Below are positions 6,362 to 21,644 of a stretch of DNA of 21,644 bases, piece after piece. This DNA is from a virus: positions 1 through 21,644 of IMG/VR virus record IMGVR_UViG_3300007276_000367, one strand, 5' to 3'. The notes below the pieces were generated by a model that saw nothing but the letters and a program-made list of their open reading frames with translations, did no database searches and had not been told where the DNA came from. Position 1 is the first letter of the stretch; each line of letters opens with the position of its first letter. The translations under genes were made by a program, and so were the position numbers.

Positions 6362-6574
6362 ATGATACATGTATTTGCTCTAATGCTGTACATAGGAGCG
6401 GGTGAGGACAAGAAGCTTATAAGTGATGACATGTACTTTCGCAAGATTGAAAGCTGTAACTACTACGCAGAACAACTTATTAAGTCTTTTGGTTCTCACC
6501 CTAACAATGACCCTAGAAGGGCTTACTGTGTACCTAAAGTTGTAGACCCTGCTAAAGAACAAATTTACTACTAA
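6362..6574 (+). CDS. Small conserved-looking marine-phage protein, unknown function
   Basis: 70 residues: a hydrophobic N-terminal segment (MIHVFALMLYIGAGED) followed by a hydrophilic part with SDDMYFRKIESCNYYAEQL and a Cys near the end (RAYCVPKV). The start lacks a clear Shine-Dalgarno; it is chosen because the hydrophobic leader plus GEDKKLISDDMYF is the arrangement I recall from similar small proteins in marine phages. The first segment is short for a membrane span but could be a signal-like anchor. Its stop codon overlaps the conserved 25-bp element described at 6571, which precedes phoH. No function can be given. Confidence 0.7.
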   Translation: MIHVFALMLYIGAGEDKKLISDDMYFRKIESCNYYAEQLIKSFGSHPNNDPRRAYCVPKVVDPAKEQIYY

Positions 6575-6597
6575 AAATAGAGATCGCTAATGATAGG
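6571..6597 (+). promoter_or_regulatory. Conserved intergenic element, copy A (candidate phage-RNAP promoter)
   Basis: CTAAAAATAG, one variable base, GATCGCT, one variable base, ATGATA, then GG. 23 of the first 25 bases match copy B at 16189. It overlaps the stop of the upstream gene and lies 33 bp before the phoH start. AT-rich 5' part, central GC core and ATA followed by GG are similar in layout to T7-family promoters, where transcription starts at GG. This is inference; a host sigma-70 site is a weaker fit because no -35 box sits at the right distance. Confidence 0.5.
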
Positions 6598-6629
6598 TCT
6601 CTCTAGAAATACCAACTAAAGGATCCTTT

Positions 6630-7334
6630 ATGTCAAGAAGATCAGAAAAGAAAAAGTCCCGTTATGCTGATAAGAAAGAAGGTAATGTTCACGTATTACC
6701 TAGATTTCATGTTCTTCCTAAGAATGAAAAGCAAAACTACTTAATACAAGCTATTAAGACAAGTCCAGTTGTAGTGACCATTGGTTGTGCTGGTACTGGG
6801 AAGACTTACTGTAGTGCTGGAACGGCAGCACAACTTTTTCTGAAGGGTGGCTATCGAAAGATAGTGCTTACCCGCGCTAACGTACCTACAGGCAAAAGTC
6901 TAGGACACTTCCCAGGAACTATTGCTGAGAAGATGACTCCTTGGTTACTTCCTATGTTGGAAGTCCTTAAGAAAGCCTTTGGTACAGGTAAGTATGAGTA
7001 TTTACTGAGTAAAAATGACATTGAGATTCAGCCCATTGAAACTATACGAGGACGTTCTTATGAAAACACTCTTGTACTAGTTGATGAGGCTCAAAATTTA
7101 AACATGGATGAACTAAAAGCCATAAGTACACGCATCGGAGAAAACTCTAAACTAATTCTCATGGGAGATCCTGCTCAGTCAGACGTAAAGGCTGGAGCTG
7201 ATCTTATGAAATTCTGTAAACTTATACAAGTTAATGGTCTTGGCCTTCCTGTGATTGAGTTTGGTATAGAAGATATTGTTAGAAGCGATATAGTTGCTGA
7301 CTTAGTAAGGATGTTTATAGCAGAAAAAATCTAA
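6630..7334 (+). CDS. phoH: PhoH-family P-loop ATPase
   Basis: 234 residues, the usual size for the phage PhoH-like ATPase domain. Walker A is GCAGTGKT at residues 52-59. TRANVPTGKSLGHFPG, typical of PhoH proteins, follows at about 81-96. Walker B is TLVLVDEAQN at about 147-156, and the sensor-like LMGDPAQSD at 177-185 is also characteristic. The N-terminus is a short Lys/Arg-rich tail. PhoH is related to superfamily-1 helicase-like ATPases and is a frequent gene of marine phages; its role in infection (RNA metabolism or phosphate stress) is unsettled. It has an AAAGGA ribosome site and follows the conserved element at 6571, so it may start a transcription unit. It sits oddly between fibre and tail-tip genes. 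Confidence 0.95.
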   Translation: MSRRSEKKKSRYADKKEGNVHVLPRFHVLPKNEKQNYLIQAIKTSPVVVTIGCAGTGKTYCSAGTAAQLFLKGGYRKIVLTRANVPTGKSLGHFPGTIAEKMTPWLLPMLEVLKKAFGTGKYEYLLSKNDIEIQPIETIRGRSYENTLVLVDEAQNLNMDELKAISTRIGENSKLILMGDPAQSDVKAGADLMKFCKLIQVNGLGLPVIEFGIEDIVRSDIVADLVRMFIAEKI

Positions 7335-16188: not shown

Positions 16189-16217
16189 CTAAAAATAGTG
16201 ATCGCTTATGATATAGG
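16189..16217 (+). promoter_or_regulatory. Conserved intergenic element, copy B (candidate phage-RNAP promoter)
   Basis: Same element as at 6571: CTAAAAATAG, variable base, GATCGCT, variable base, ATGATA, here followed by TAGG. It lies 11 bp after a stop codon and opens the intergenic region before the basic-protein/portal/MuF-RNAP block. Eleven bases of its 3' part (GCTTATGATAT, 16204-16214) are repeated exactly at 16232-16242. The match between two unrelated intergenic sites argues for a DNA-binding signal; promoter function is inferred. Confidence 0.5.
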
Positions 16218-16305
16218 TTTACCGAGGAACAGCTTATGATATCCCTACAAGCTGACCGTTCCTCTTTTGGGGTACTTAGTTAATTCTAGGTACTCCTTTT
16301 ACTTT
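16216..16305 (+). ncRNA. Candidate short structured RNA between element B and a terminator
   Basis: If transcription starts at the GG after element B, the first 90 bases fold into two consecutive stems. Stem 1 pairs 16224-16230 (GAGGAAC) with 16258-16264 (GTTCCTC), extended by AGCTT/AAGCT (16231-16235 with 16249-16253) with a GACC bulge. Stem 2 is the terminator-like hairpin. No open frame fits. It may be an independent RNA, a processed leader, or simply tandem terminators for the upstream operon. Confidence 0.3.
16269..16305 (+). terminator. Intrinsic terminator-like hairpin upstream of the basic-protein genes
   Basis: Left arm GGGGTACTTAG (16269-16279) pairs over 11 positions (two G-U wobbles) with CTAGGTACTCC (16286-16296), loop TTAATT, followed by TTTTACTTT. 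It stands just before the ribosome site (AGGAG at 16306) of the next gene. It could end the tail/lysis transcript made by host RNA polymerase; a T7-like polymerase might read through. Confidence 0.65.
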
Positions 16306-16316
16306 AGGAGAAATAA

Positions 16317-16676
16317 ATGGGTAGAGCTAATCCAAAGAAGTGGGAGCAAGCTAAAAAAGATGCTGTAGCTAAAATGGGTGGACACTCTGCTAGAGCTATG
16401 CAACTAGCTGCTAAACTTTATAAAGACCGTGGTGGCAAGTACACTGGCGGCAAAGATTCAGGTCAAAAGTCTATGACTAAGTGGACTAAACAGAAGTGGA
16501 GGACCAAGTCTGGTAAACCTTCTGTAAGCGGACCAAAAGCTACAGGTGAAAGATATTTACCTACAAAAACTATTGCTGCTATGTCACCTAAAAAGTACAA
16601 AGCATCAACAGCAAAGAAAAGAAAAGATACTGCTGCAGGAAAACAATACTCTTCTCAGCCTAAGAAAAGGAAGTAA
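16317..16676 (+). CDS. Very basic small protein (DUF5872-like)
   Basis: 119 residues with AGGAG 6 bp before the start. By count it has 27 Lys and 7 Arg against 6 acidic residues. Visible motifs: MGRANPKKWEQAKKDAVAKM, then KWTKQKWRTKSGKPS and GERYLPTKTIAAMSPKKY, ending KKRK. The KWTKQKWRTKSG and GERYLPTK motifs are those I associate with the DUF5872 family, common in marine phages and some giant viruses; function is unknown. The charge suggests nucleic-acid binding, perhaps as a packaged or capsid-internal protein, given that portal and MuF-RNAP genes follow. This last point is inference. Confidence 0.75.
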   Translation: MGRANPKKWEQAKKDAVAKMGGHSARAMQLAAKLYKDRGGKYTGGKDSGQKSMTKWTKQKWRTKSGKPSVSGPKATGERYLPTKTIAAMSPKKYKASTAKKRKDTAAGKQYSSQPKKRK

Positions 16677-16678
16677 TA

Positions 16679-16960
16679 ATGTCTTCAGATCCTAGACTAA
16701 AAAGAGCAGGTGTTTCTGGCTATAATAAACCAAAAAGAACTCCTGCTCATGCAACAAAATCTCACATTGTTGTTGCTAAAGTAGGAGATCAAGTAAAAAC
16801 AATTCGCTTTGGTGCTCAAGGCGCTAAAGGTAGCCCAAGGAAAATGGGAGAATCTGCTAAGTATGCCGCAAGACGGAATGCTTGGAAAGCTCGTCATGCA
16901 ACTAATATTGCTAGAGGAAAATTGTCTGCTGCTTATTGGGCAAACAAAGTAAAATGGTAA
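16679..16960 (+). CDS. Second small basic protein, unknown function
   Basis: 93 residues, starting two bases after the previous stop. The N-terminal part (RLKRAGVSGYNKPKRTPAHA) is basic; the middle is a beta-like segment (SHIVVAKVGDQVKTIRFGAQ); the end (FGAQGAKGSPRKMGES, then RRNAWKARHATNIARGK, then LSAAYWANKVKW) is a basic helix with a WANKVKW finish. The combination RHATNIARGKLSAAYWANKVKW-like ending is familiar from small marine-phage proteins without assigned role. Nucleic-acid binding is plausible from charge. It is followed at 10 bp by the portal gene. Confidence 0.75.
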   Translation: MSSDPRLKRAGVSGYNKPKRTPAHATKSHIVVAKVGDQVKTIRFGAQGAKGSPRKMGESAKYAARRNAWKARHATNIARGKLSAAYWANKVKW

Positions 16961-16969
16961 GGAACCCTT

Positions 16970-18535
16970 ATGGCACAGAAAATTACAACTACTAAAACTA
17001 TTAAGAAGTCTGTAGCAGATCCTAGTGATTCTTATCATTCTCTTACTCCTTTGTGGAAAAAATCAAGAGCAATTTTACAAGGTGAGGCTAATGTAAAAGC
17101 TCACGACACTACTCTGGCAACCGACTATTCTAATCTTTTGTTGCCATTTTCTCCTTCTATGACCCAAGCACAGTATAACTTTTATAAAGCCGAAGCAGAA
17201 CTTTCAGGGTTAACTGCGCAGTACTGTAAAGTACTTATTAGTTCTTTGCTACGGAAAAAATCTCAACTTAAATTACCAGAAGAACTTCCAGAAGAGGCGT
17301 TAGACTGGATTGAAACAAATTTTACTTTGGACGGTCGTTCTCTCTTTAATTTTCTTGACGCCGCTTTATGGGAAGAACTTCAGACCTCGCGCTGTTGGGT
17401 GTCAGTTGATTACCCGAAACTTACCGAAGAACAACAAGAAGCCTTAACTCCTGAAGAGCGTGACATGGTTGCGCCTTACCCAGTAATTATTAAAGCTGAA
17501 AACGTAATTAACTATCAAGTAAATGTACACCCTATTACTCGCCAAAGAACTCTTACTCGGCTAGTACTGCGGTACTTAACTGAAGAGTTTGATGAAGAAA
17601 ATCCTTGGCATCCTAACTATGTAGACACTGTTTGTGACCACTACTTAGATGAAGGCGGTAATCTTGTTTTAGACTACTACCGCCAAAAAGATACTTACGC
17701 AGAACTTAAAGTTCTTAATGGAGAAGTAACTCAAGACTATAAAGACATTCGCACAGAAACTCACTTTGAAAAGTATGACACCGTAACTCCCCAAATGTTT
17801 GGTGAGCGTCTTAAGCGTATTCCTGCTTGGCCTCTCAACGGTCATATTGAGCCTATTGAGCCAGTGCTTATGCCGCTCATTGATCGTGAAGTTTCTTTGT
17901 ACAACAAAGTATCTCGCAGAAACCACCTGCTTTATGGTGCTGCAACCTATACTCCTATTGTGTCTTCTGACATGACAGACGAAGAATTTGAAGAGTTAGT
18001 AGGTGCAGGGCTAGGTACGTGGTTACGAGTACGTAAAGACGAGTCAATAAGTGTTCTTGAAACTCCTACTGCAGCCCTCGCTGACATGGACACTGCTATT
18101 ACAAAAACCGTAGAAGAAATGGCTAAAATGGGAATTCGAATGCTTTCCCCTGAAACAGCACAGTCAGGCATTGCTTTAGAAATCCGAAACGCTTCTCAAA
18201 CAGCGCAGCTAGGTACTCTTAACGCTAAAGTGTCTCATATTATGAGAGAAGTAATTTCTTTTATGCTTAACTGGAAGTATGGTTCAACTTACTCAGGAAA
18301 TGATGTCGAGTTTACTTTATCGGCAGACTTTGCACCAGTTGTTGGCGGCGAAGGTGCTATGCGCTTAGTTACTGAATGGTATCAGTCAGGGCTTATTCCA
18401 AGAGAAACTTTTGTGTCTGTTGCTAAATACAATGACTTTATTCCTTCTGACTATGATGATGAAGAAGCAATTCAGTCTATTCAAACAGACCCTTTAACTC
18501 AAGAAACCCCTGATGATCAAATGGAAATAGAATAA
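16970..18535 (+). CDS. Portal protein (DUF4055-type)
   Basis: 521 residues, typical portal size, with AAGGAA before the start. N-terminal WKKSRAILQGEANVKAH, the VSVDYPKLTEEQQEAL segment, YPVIIKAENVINYQVN and the long segment around EPVLMPLIDREVSLYNKVSR...LYGAATYTPIV are the features of DUF4055 portal-like proteins. A long helix region with MAKMGIRMLSPETAQSGIA and IMREVISFMLNWKYGS corresponds to the conserved stem/wing helices. The C-terminus is acidic (YDDEEAIQSIQTDPLTQETP). The portal is the dodecameric gate for DNA packaging and exit. The next large gene is a MuF-type head morphogenesis protein, the usual partner. No terminase gene is in the window. Confidence 0.85.
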   Translation: MAQKITTTKTIKKSVADPSDSYHSLTPLWKKSRAILQGEANVKAHDTTLATDYSNLLLPFSPSMTQAQYNFYKAEAELSGLTAQYCKVLISSLLRKKSQLKLPEELPEEALDWIETNFTLDGRSLFNFLDAALWEELQTSRCWVSVDYPKLTEEQQEALTPEERDMVAPYPVIIKAENVINYQVNVHPITRQRTLTRLVLRYLTEEFDEENPWHPNYVDTVCDHYLDEGGNLVLDYYRQKDTYAELKVLNGEVTQDYKDIRTETHFEKYDTVTPQMFGERLKRIPAWPLNGHIEPIEPVLMPLIDREVSLYNKVSRRNHLLYGAATYTPIVSSDMTDEEFEELVGAGLGTWLRVRKDESISVLETPTAALADMDTAITKTVEEMAKMGIRMLSPETAQSGIALEIRNASQTAQLGTLNAKVSHIMREVISFMLNWKYGSTYSGNDVEFTLSADFAPVVGGEGAMRLVTEWYQSGLIPRETFVSVAKYNDFIPSDYDDEEAIQSIQTDPLTQETPDDQMEIE

Positions 18536-18693: not shown

Positions 18694-21644
18694 ATGAACT
18701 ACAATGATAAAATTTTTGATCGTATTGTTGACCACATGGGAGACGTACGGCTGTATGAAGAAGGTGTTCAACTTCAAAATCGCAGGATTTTAAAAAGACA
18801 TAGAAAAAATTTAAAAACGTTATTAAGAGGAAATGTTAGAGCCGATCTTCAGAAAGAAATGAATAGATTTGGTAAAGAACTTTCCGTCCACAATAATACA
18901 AGTTTAAAAGAATTTTCAACTTCTCAGTTAGACTTTTCTACAAATAACTTATACAAAGAAGTAAAAGACTGGTATAAAGTCCAAAGGCCAAAAACTAAAG
19001 AACTTCTTGGCGAAATTGCTGGACCAAATATCAAAGGTACTCGAAGTATCACTAAGAATATTTCTAATATCTCTGCTGGAGAGTTAGTACGTATTCAGTC
19101 TAAAGTGAAAGCAGGGCTTGCTAAAGGTTCTGGTAAAACCGCTATTATTGCTGATGTAATAAAAACTACAAAGTTAACCGAACATCAAGCAAGAACTCTA
19201 ACTCGTACCGCTATTACTTCAACTCAAACTGCTGCTGTACACAAAGTTGCAGAAGAAAACAAAGATATAATTAAGGGTTACATGTTTACCGCTATTCTAG
19301 ACTCTAGAACTAGCCCAATTTGTACTCATCACAACGGAAAAATTTATGACATAGGAGACAGGAGCTATGAACCTCCCCTTCACTGGAATTGTCGTTCCTC
19401 TATGGTACCAGTTCTTAAATCTAAGGAAGAACTACTGCAAGAGAGTCCGTCAAAACGTGTTAACGTTTCTGCGCTTAAAAAGAAAGACCCCCAAAAGCTA
19501 AATGGGCTTCCTCCTAAGACTAAAGATTTTGGCACATGGTTAAAAACTCAGTCTATGGACGTTCAAACTAAAATGTTAGGGTCAGAAGACGCAGCTAACT
19601 TATTCAGACAAGGCAAGTTAAAAGCTGACGAGTTTGTTACTCCTAAAGGGAAAGCACTAAGCATACAAGCATTAAGAGCCAGAGCTACAGCAGCTACCAC
19701 AGTATTTAAGCCTCGACAAAAAATAAAGTCTGAAGGGGTGTCTGTAGATTCAAAGACTCCTAACTCTTTACTAAATAATCCAAAATATAGAGACGATTTA
19801 AGAAATATGCTTTTGTTAGACTCAGATGACTTTAACAAAACTATGTCTCTTACTGACTATAAAGGAACTAGTTTACAAGGTAAGGCTGCTTCTCGAAGAA
19901 GAGTTGGAAATCAATTTGATGAAAGAAACTTTTCAGCAGACCCCTTAACAGGTGAAATTAAAAATAATAACATTTACGATCCTGATTTTAATCTTTATCA
20001 AGAGCGACTTGACTTTATGCGTAACGCTAAAGATCTTACTCTTCAACAAAAAGACTTTATTGAAAACATGGCTTCGTCTTTAAATGACAAGGTTTCTTTA
20101 AATCAACAAACAGTCATTGTTGAAAACTTAAGAGTTGTATTTCAAAGGTATGCTAAAGATAAAGTTCCTTGGGGGGACTTTGCTTCTGTTATGAGAGCAG
20201 AAAACAGATTTGCTGTACAAAACGTTTCAAGATTGTTAGATGTTAGGTCTAGGCAACGTTCAGAAATGTTTGTTAGTTATCTTTCTAAAGATAAACCTCA
20301 AGTTCAAATCATGGGTAAGTATTATACTTTAGATGATTTAAATAAAAACCTTTTAAAAGATCAACGTTTTATAGATAATTGGAGAGCTAAAGAAGGTAAA
20401 AAACTTTCAAGAAAGCTTTACTTTACAGGGCGAGCACCTATGCGGGTCTACTTTCAAAGCCTTTATACTAAGTATCCTAGCAAAAAAGAGTTTAAAGAAA
20501 ACTTATTAAACAAAGTAGTTCCTTTAAGAAAACGTTATAAGGACTTTAAAAAGAAGTTTAACAAAGAACCTTCTGATAGTTGGTGGACAAAAAATGTTGC
20601 ATCAGTAAGAGAAAGCTATCGAGGTGTTGTAGATCTTGAATTTATTAATAGAAAGAAAATTCCTTCTTCAAAAGTAATGGACGATAAGGCTTTAAGAAGC
20701 ATAACTAAAATTGCTAAGTTAATTTCTTCTGGGCAATCTACAGACTACGATACTTTAGCTATTAACATTGGTAAAAAGTTTACTGATGATTTTGGTACAG
20801 TGCTACCTCTTAAAAGAACGTTAAAAGCTCATCATAAAGACGGTTCTCGTATACTAGACTTTATGGCTAAAAGCGGCTACATTAAAGTACAATTTAGAGG
20901 TAAGACTCGAAGAGGTGTTATGGATGTAGAAACGGGTCGCGCAACAGGCGGTTGGGCCGATACTATTTCTAGAGAAGTTACTGTAATAGATAAAAAGCTT
21001 ATTTTGCTACAAGAAGCAGAACGTAGAACTGTTATAGCAAGACGACTTGGTGTAGTTAACGATAGAGATAGACTCTATGTTAAAGCTGGTAAAAAGACTT
21101 TCTTTGATGCTAGAGGTAACGACACAGGAGTTCCTATTATTTCAGCAGACAAGTTCGCTGACTATGACCCTAAACAAATAGACCGAGACATGGCTAAGAT
21201 GATGAATCATGTTTCAAATACAGAGTACCAAGTAGATGGCGAATTTTTTGATTTTATGGACGACATTGTGCGCTTTCGGGATCCTAGAGGGAAAAGCAAA
21301 TACTATGATTCTATCAATGAGCTGCGTCATGAGATTTTAAATCGTGGTGAACAAGGCTATGGTCTAATGGCTACTGCTAAGTGGCATAGACAACGAGGAG
21401 AATCTTTTAAAACTCAAGTGTTCATTGATTCTCGCGGTCGAGTATATCACCGTGGTTACTTAACTCCTACAGGAGGAGAGCTTGTTAGACCTTTTCTTAA
21501 TGCAGGACAAACTGTTAGCATGACTCCTATAGCCATGCGTGAACTACGTATTCAACTTGGCGCAATGATAGGGCCAGGAACGGAAGCACTTACTCAAACA
21601 GGACGTTTAGCTATTTTTCAAAGAAATGAACGGGCTTTGCGAGA
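18694..21644 (+). CDS. MuF head-morphogenesis domain fused to a T7-like RNA polymerase (3'-partial)
   Basis: At least 983 codons with no stop, cut by the right edge. An in-frame TAG directly before the ATG fixes the N-terminus; GGTGG stands 5 bp upstream. Residues about 110-240 form a Mu-F/SPP1 gp7 domain: LTRTAITSTQTAAVHKV, then AILDSRTSPICTHHNGKIY and PPLHWNCRSSMVPV, with the usual Cys210, His230 and Cys233. Residues about 240-825 are Lys-rich, helical-looking and unassigned. From 830 the sequence resembles single-subunit RNA polymerases: MMNHVSNTEYQVDGEFFDF parallels the T7 LNDLSHKPWAINTKVLEV block, and QVFIDSRGRVYHRGYLTPTG (909-928) parallels the T7 NMDWRGRVYAVSMFNPQG, including the T/DxxGR motif at 912-916. 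Palm motifs A, B and C would be downstream. MuF proteins are minor capsid components near the portal, so a virion-carried polymerase is inferred. Catalytic activity cannot be judged from this part. Confidence 0.85.
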   Translation, partial: MNYNDKIFDRIVDHMGDVRLYEEGVQLQNRRILKRHRKNLKTLLRGNVRADLQKEMNRFGKELSVHNNTSLKEFSTSQLDFSTNNLYKEVKDWYKVQRPKTKELLGEIAGPNIKGTRSITKNISNISAGELVRIQSKVKAGLAKGSGKTAIIADVIKTTKLTEHQARTLTRTAITSTQTAAVHKVAEENKDIIKGYMFTAILDSRTSPICTHHNGKIYDIGDRSYEPPLHWNCRSSMVPVLKSKEELLQESPSKRVNVSALKKKDPQKLNGLPPKTKDFGTWLKTQSMDVQTKMLGSEDAANLFRQGKLKADEFVTPKGKALSIQALRARATAATTVFKPRQKIKSEGVSVDSKTPNSLLNNPKYRDDLRNMLLLDSDDFNKTMSLTDYKGTSLQGKAASRRRVGNQFDERNFSADPLTGEIKNNNIYDPDFNLYQERLDFMRNAKDLTLQQKDFIENMASSLNDKVSLNQQTVIVENLRVVFQRYAKDKVPWGDFASVMRAENRFAVQNVSRLLDVRSRQRSEMFVSYLSKDKPQVQIMGKYYTLDDLNKNLLKDQRFIDNWRAKEGKKLSRKLYFTGRAPMRVYFQSLYTKYPSKKEFKENLLNKVVPLRKRYKDFKKKFNKEPSDSWWTKNVASVRESYRGVVDLEFINRKKIPSSKVMDDKALRSITKIAKLISSGQSTDYDTLAINIGKKFTDDFGTVLPLKRTLKAHHKDGSRILDFMAKSGYIKVQFRGKTRRGVMDVETGRATGGWADTISREVTVIDKKLILLQEAERRTVIARRLGVVNDRDRLYVKAGKKTFFDARGNDTGVPIISADKFADYDPKQIDRDMAKMMNHVSNTEYQVDGEFFDFMDDIVRFRDPRGKSKYYDSINELRHEILNRGEQGYGLMATAKWHRQRGESFKTQVFIDSRGRVYHRGYLTPTGGELVRPFLNAGQTVSMTPIAMRELRIQLGAMIGPGTEALTQTGRLAIFQRNERALR

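Follow-up and report, generated by a model that had tools for sequence, protein, structure and literature searches.

Why should a virus carry almost the same 25 nt before phoH and again before its portal and head genes? The window, i.e. the whole stretch of 21,644 nt analysed here, is a 21.6-kb virus record of a siphovirus which encodes a J-like tail protein, a distal tail protein, a portal protein and a MuF head protein. The original prediction had claimed two near-identical 25-mers, and indeed copy A (CTAAAAATAGAGATCGCTAATGATA) and copy B (CTAAAAATAGTGATCGCTTATGATA) agree at 23 of 25 bases, the two differences being A/T swaps at element positions 11 and 19. The repeat is beyond chance, as dinucleotide shuffles produced no matches. 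Neither copy has another near partner in the window, where the next-best match has seven mismatches. A GG said to follow both copies directly adjoins only copy A; copy B runs on with TAGG. The unit common to the relatives is a 19-mer core, AATAGWGATCGCTWATGAT, and not the whole 25-mer. As set out below, the repeated element is very probably a phage promoter of the T7/SP6 class. The coordinates are given in Table 1.

Table 1. Elements, genes and predicted leaders in the window
Feature	Position	Strand	Basis
Copy A, predicted phage-RNAP promoter before phoH	6571..6595	+	recurrence; VP1 site 6579 before PhoH matches
Core of copy A, AATAGAGATCGCTAATGAT	6576-6594	+	sequence
Predicted phoH 5' leader, 38 nt	6592..6629	+	inferred from sequence
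phoH, first gene 3' of copy A	6630..7334	+	Pfam PhoH, E 8e-53
Copy B, predicted phage-RNAP promoter before portal/head genes	16189..16213	+	recurrence; matching VP1 sites, tandem sites of relatives
Core of copy B, AATAGTGATCGCTTATGAT	16194-16212	+	sequence
Predicted 5' leader after copy B, 107 nt, two hairpins	16210..16316	+	sequence
Leader hairpin 1	16224-16264		GAGGAAC..GTTCCTC, then TTTT
Leader hairpin 2, terminator-like	16269-16296		followed by TTTT
Genes 3' of copy B: small ORFs (16317-16676, 16679-16960), portal (16970-18535)	16317..18535	+	
MuF head protein fused to single-subunit RNAP, cut by window end	18694..21642	+	Phage_Mu_F, E 4e-16

Recurrence at conserved gene positions

IMG/VR was scanned with the core pattern and many related contigs matched. 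Because these contigs overlap in origin, sites and not contigs were taken as the independent units of count. The clade contigs (373 kb) hold 26 distinct sense contexts with the exact core and ten more with one or two mismatches, and not a single antisense copy at up to three mismatches. Nearly all copies are intergenic and all are in coding sense, which bears out the expectation that further copies would lie upstream of genes on the coding strand. With other viruses set aside, the core is found at eight distinct gene positions in the relatives: before phoH (A), before portal (B), after the major tail protein (C), before a 5'-3' exonuclease (D), before the terminase block (E), directly after a free RNAP and before an SSB-like gene (F), before ribonucleotide reductase, where it sits in the end of a short upstream ORF (G), and downstream of terminase (H). 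A copy with one or two mismatches inside an ORF of contig L029 is probably due to chance. Exact IMG/VR matches in L050, L061, L066, L072, L077, L080, L083, L095, L098, L099, L048/L096 and L070 were set aside as lying in other viruses, antisense to the genes, distant from them or within one. At site C of L024, L027 and L028 none of the tested element versions was found, and Kolga and EBPR siphovirus 1 yielded no element with the patterns used.

The closest isolated phages are the roseophages DSS3_VP1 and PM1, classified as Naomviridae, with 61% identity over the whole MuF-RNAP protein (see below). With the pattern [AG]ATAGG(G/T)(G/T)(A/G)CGTTAAAGARGGG and up to four mismatches, SP6-like sites (for instance, AATAGGTGACGTTAAAGA) occur 13 times in VP1 and 13 times in PM1, all on the coding strand, compared to 0.03 expected in a Markov control. 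Nine of the 13 VP1 sites are intergenic, in a genome with about 6% intergenic DNA; the other four are inside annotated genes. The gene order around the sites is the same in the window clade and in VP1/PM1, and judged by the neighbouring genes their sites match the clade positions A, B (three copies), C, E and F. Copy B thus has counterparts at 19201, 19236 and 19325 before the portal gene of VP1, and in tandem sites of L022/L109 and of a 63.9-kb contig. One VP1 site also precedes ribonucleotide reductase, as at clade site G; for the VP1 reductase genes no homologue was found in the clade contigs. Site C of L021 shows an intermediate form of the element, AATAGAGATCGCTTAAGAGGGGATCC. A simple word search in the intergenic DNA of VP1 revealed no second, early-gene motif. 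As regards the gene next to site F, a reading of VP1 46619-47248 as dTMP phosphatase was dropped; from its acidic tail and position, the clade homologue looks like a T7 gp2.5-like SSB.

Lineage versions and putative promoter anatomy

At least six versions of the putative promoter are found where gene positions are conserved, and a matching polymerase sequence is available for five of them. Besides the forms of the window clade and of VP1/PM1 there are AATACTTCGCGATTATG at site B of L022/L109 (twice) and at site D of L111, AATACTTGCAGATAATGA at sites D and F of the L121 contig, AATACCCGTGACTAATGA at site F of L122/L125, and AATACCCGCAAATAATGA, which occurs unchanged five times in the 63.9-kb contig, always on the same strand: twice at B and once each at D, E and F. 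Comparison of six lineages shows little change in AATA at -16 to -13, for which some VP1 copies have GATA, or in TWAWGA at -4 to +2, whereas in the block from -12 to -5 three to eight of the eight bases differ; between VP1 and the window clade it is four of eight. Each lineage has changed the letters of the element at all its sites together, the block being swapped as a unit.

This is the layout of the T7 promoter, with an AT-rich part at -17 to -13, a block at -12 to -5, melting at -4 to -1 and a purine start (PMC13029058, PMC11617373). In T7-promoter anatomy the specificity loop makes its contact at -12 to -5 (PMC13029058; see also PMC11617373) and the initiation region begins at -4 (PMC13029058, PMC11617373). 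All three parts are seen in the six lineages: AT-rich sequence from -17 to -13, a lineage-specific block from -12 to -5 and conserved sequence from -4 to the start. The element lacks the CACTA core at -7 to -3 which is common among T7, T3, SP6 and K11 promoters (PMC13029058); the window has CGCTW there and VP1 CGTTA, and the start is GAT or GAR, where T7 has GGG. We treat this core as typical for these phages and not as defining for the promoter class. Closer still is the SP6 promoter, as read in the SP6 genome: the VP1 and L119 versions share TAGGTGAC with it in the same register to +1, as well as T-4, A-3, A-1 and the GA start (VP1 19325). The window version differs by its GWGATCGC block and by T at -1, the base found there in most element versions. 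Furthermore, the SP6 promoter is read by a T7-like single-subunit RNAP, as proposed here, although the present polymerases agree with SP6 RNAP in only about one residue in four and host and virion type are different (a siphovirus in the present case).

Host sigma factors could in principle use such sites, with TATGAT of copy B, which is near TATAAT, as a -10 box. Copy A has AATGAT at the same place, however, and no sigma-70-like pair of -35 and -10 hexamers at 16–18 nt spacing overlaps either copy, for which reason a sigma-70 promoter was rejected. It is the -12 to -5 block, and not any -35/-10 hexamers, which is most strongly conserved, and the replacement of this block as a unit across lineages also argues against sigma factors, making them a very improbable explanation. 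The sites might instead bind a repressor, a replication or a packaging protein without being promoters; AGWGATCGCT is an imperfect palindrome around GATC, and binding sites may well recur through a genome as these do. Yet the palindrome is lost in the versions of other lineages, and a promoter but not an operator explains the uniform coding-sense orientation just 5' of genes, the SP6-like form which the element takes in VP1 without a shift of register, and the constant start region (TWAWGA). There is hence very little likelihood that protein-binding sites of this kind are the right reading. The T7-type promoter which had been suggested for the element from the window is, on the other hand, strongly backed by the sense copies of the relatives, by the matching sites in VP1 and PM1 and by lineage versions which go alongside changes in a polymerase loop (see below).

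Predicted start sites and RNA structure

In a promoter of this type, polymerase-specific recognition would involve GWGATCGC at -12 to -5, downstream of the AT-rich part (-17 to -13), and melting and start would take place in TWAT followed by GAT. Initiation is probably at the G of GATA, i.e. at G6592 in copy A and at G16210 in copy B, because the conserved frame aligns with SP6 in this way; this replaces the later GG, which had been taken as the transcript start. A phoH transcript would begin at copy A and a portal/head transcript at copy B. The predicted phoH leader has no significant RNA fold (z = 0.88). The leader after copy B contains two stable hairpins, which might terminate transcription from upstream, mark sites of processing or be structures of the leader itself.

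An RNA hairpin, serving as a processing site or terminator, might itself be the conserved entity. Copy A can form the predicted 7-bp pairing of AGAGATC with GGTCTCT; 7 bp are also possible in L006 and 6–7 bp at several site C copies, and site H has a 9-bp dyad. For copy B the pairing had been said to be missing: an equal one is indeed absent, but a weaker, imperfect counterpart exists. At B, D, E and one F copy the pairing is weaker or absent, the fold of copy A is of unexceptional stability (z = -1.27), and the 5' arm of the hairpin lies upstream of the predicted +1. A conserved RNA hairpin was rejected on the grounds of this inconsistency across sites and must be regarded as extremely improbable; what is conserved is the DNA motif, as the original prediction had it. 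The virion RNAP of phage N4 uses hairpin promoters. A conserved promoter hairpin of that type was not seen consistently at our sites, as the pairing is weaker or absent at several of them and spans +1 where present.

Some local structures were observed in addition. The dyad at site H (L059 9964, L056 7468, in coding orientation), formed by GGAGATCGC and GCGGTCTCC, extends across the predicted start; a weaker complementarity to AGWGATC is found again 3' of +1 at sites A and C. A GC-rich hairpin such as GGGGATCC TTCG GGGTCTCC starts within a few bases of the predicted +1 in VP1 and in some members of the clade; it resembles a 5' stabilising stem-loop (L021 10096-10135; L041 6579-6625).

The probable reading polymerase

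The original prediction assumed a T7-like polymerase in this phage. A single-subunit RNAP is present in the window, but it is fused to a head protein: the last ORF (MuF) runs on into the RNAP in a longer relative (1456 aa). This full-length relative (L018:10001-14371) matches the RNAP families phrog_414 and phrog_2051, and the MuF-RNAP profile matches T7 RNAP in the PDB (E 2e-5). VP1 has a free T7-like RNAP together with and separate from its MuF-RNAP. Putative cognate single-subunit RNAPs were found in VP1, L103, L064, L088 and L097. Only the MuF-fused RNAP is seen within the window, and judged by the contigs of its relatives the window phage should have a free one, too. The free RNAP can be aligned with the RNAPs of T7 and SP6, and its catalytic residues are conserved; the VP1 and clade enzymes are about 50% identical. 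An AlphaFold model of it from three sequences had a pLDDT of 36, too low for the model to be of use.

The specificity loop of the free RNAP is RLKLKHNDRTLWTQ in VP1. L119, which has promoters like those of VP1, shows RVRLQHGPKTLWVQ there, and the window clade RVRLRYGDEELQIQ; five of 14 residues are the same between VP1 and the window clade. The equivalent stretch of the MuF-RNAP is barely different (RIDFTDPVSGRKIMNIY in VP1, RIEFTDPVSGRKVANIY in the clade). Over six lineages, and with shared ancestry not removed, loop and promoter distances show a modest correlation of 0.63, compared to 0.55 for whole-RNAP distance. Since the loop of the free RNAP changes with the block while that of the MuF-RNAP barely differs, the free RNAP is the likelier reader.

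Were the same sites read by the window's MuF-fused RNAP, perhaps carried in the virion, its loop would not be expected to stay near-unchanged between VP1 and the clade while four of eight bases of the promoter block differ; some of the sites, furthermore, belong to late structural genes, and one directly follows the gene of the free RNAP. This polymerase does keep the motifs of single-subunit RNAPs (DSRGRVY, ENDASSSG, K..Y in KSQNMVSFYG, HDAF), no close relative with a contig across this region lacks it, VP1 encodes it together with a free RNAP, and in L142, the most distant MuF-RNAP lineage, the loop stretch does differ. Taken together we consider it unlikely as the reader. From comparison of sequences we infer with high confidence that copies A and B are T7/SP6-class promoters used by a single-subunit RNAP of the phage, most likely the free T7-like one of about 721 aa known from the relatives.

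In VP1 the MuF-RNAP (NC_055826 21242-25633) is annotated only as head morphogenesis. In EBPR siphovirus 1 (JF412302 25771-31144) an ORF for an HNH endonuclease lies between the two ORFs into which its homologue is split. The MuF-RNAP is a candidate virion RNAP, and the siphovirus in question encodes a free RNAP as well. Phage N4 likewise has two single-subunit RNAPs, one of which is apparently a virion component, as in VP1; the candidate here differs in its fusion to MuF, as the fusion partner of N4-like virion RNAPs is nearly always a peptidase domain (PMC5512222). In these siphophages the MuF-fused RNAP may enter with the DNA and transcribe early genes including that of the free RNAP, which would then use the promoters described here, with a promoter–polymerase pair of its own in each lineage; we regard this scheme as about equally likely to be right or wrong.

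In the DNA of VP1 and PM1 deoxyuridine replaces thymidine (PMC12697855), and their putative promoters would need to function on such DNA. For the dCMP deaminase of VP1 no homologue was found among the window-clade contigs searched; in one sister lineage a dCMP-deaminase-like ORF (L111 1937-2368) lies directly 5' of the site D promoter. Both observations bear on the question which lineages have dU-DNA. In the literature searched we found no promoter map for Naomviridae-like marine siphophages, though the original dU-roseophage paper might mention promoters. The predicted sites provide such a map, based on sequence. Furthermore, the natural series of promoter versions makes the co-evolution of promoter and specificity loop directly testable and offers candidate orthogonal RNAP–promoter pairs.
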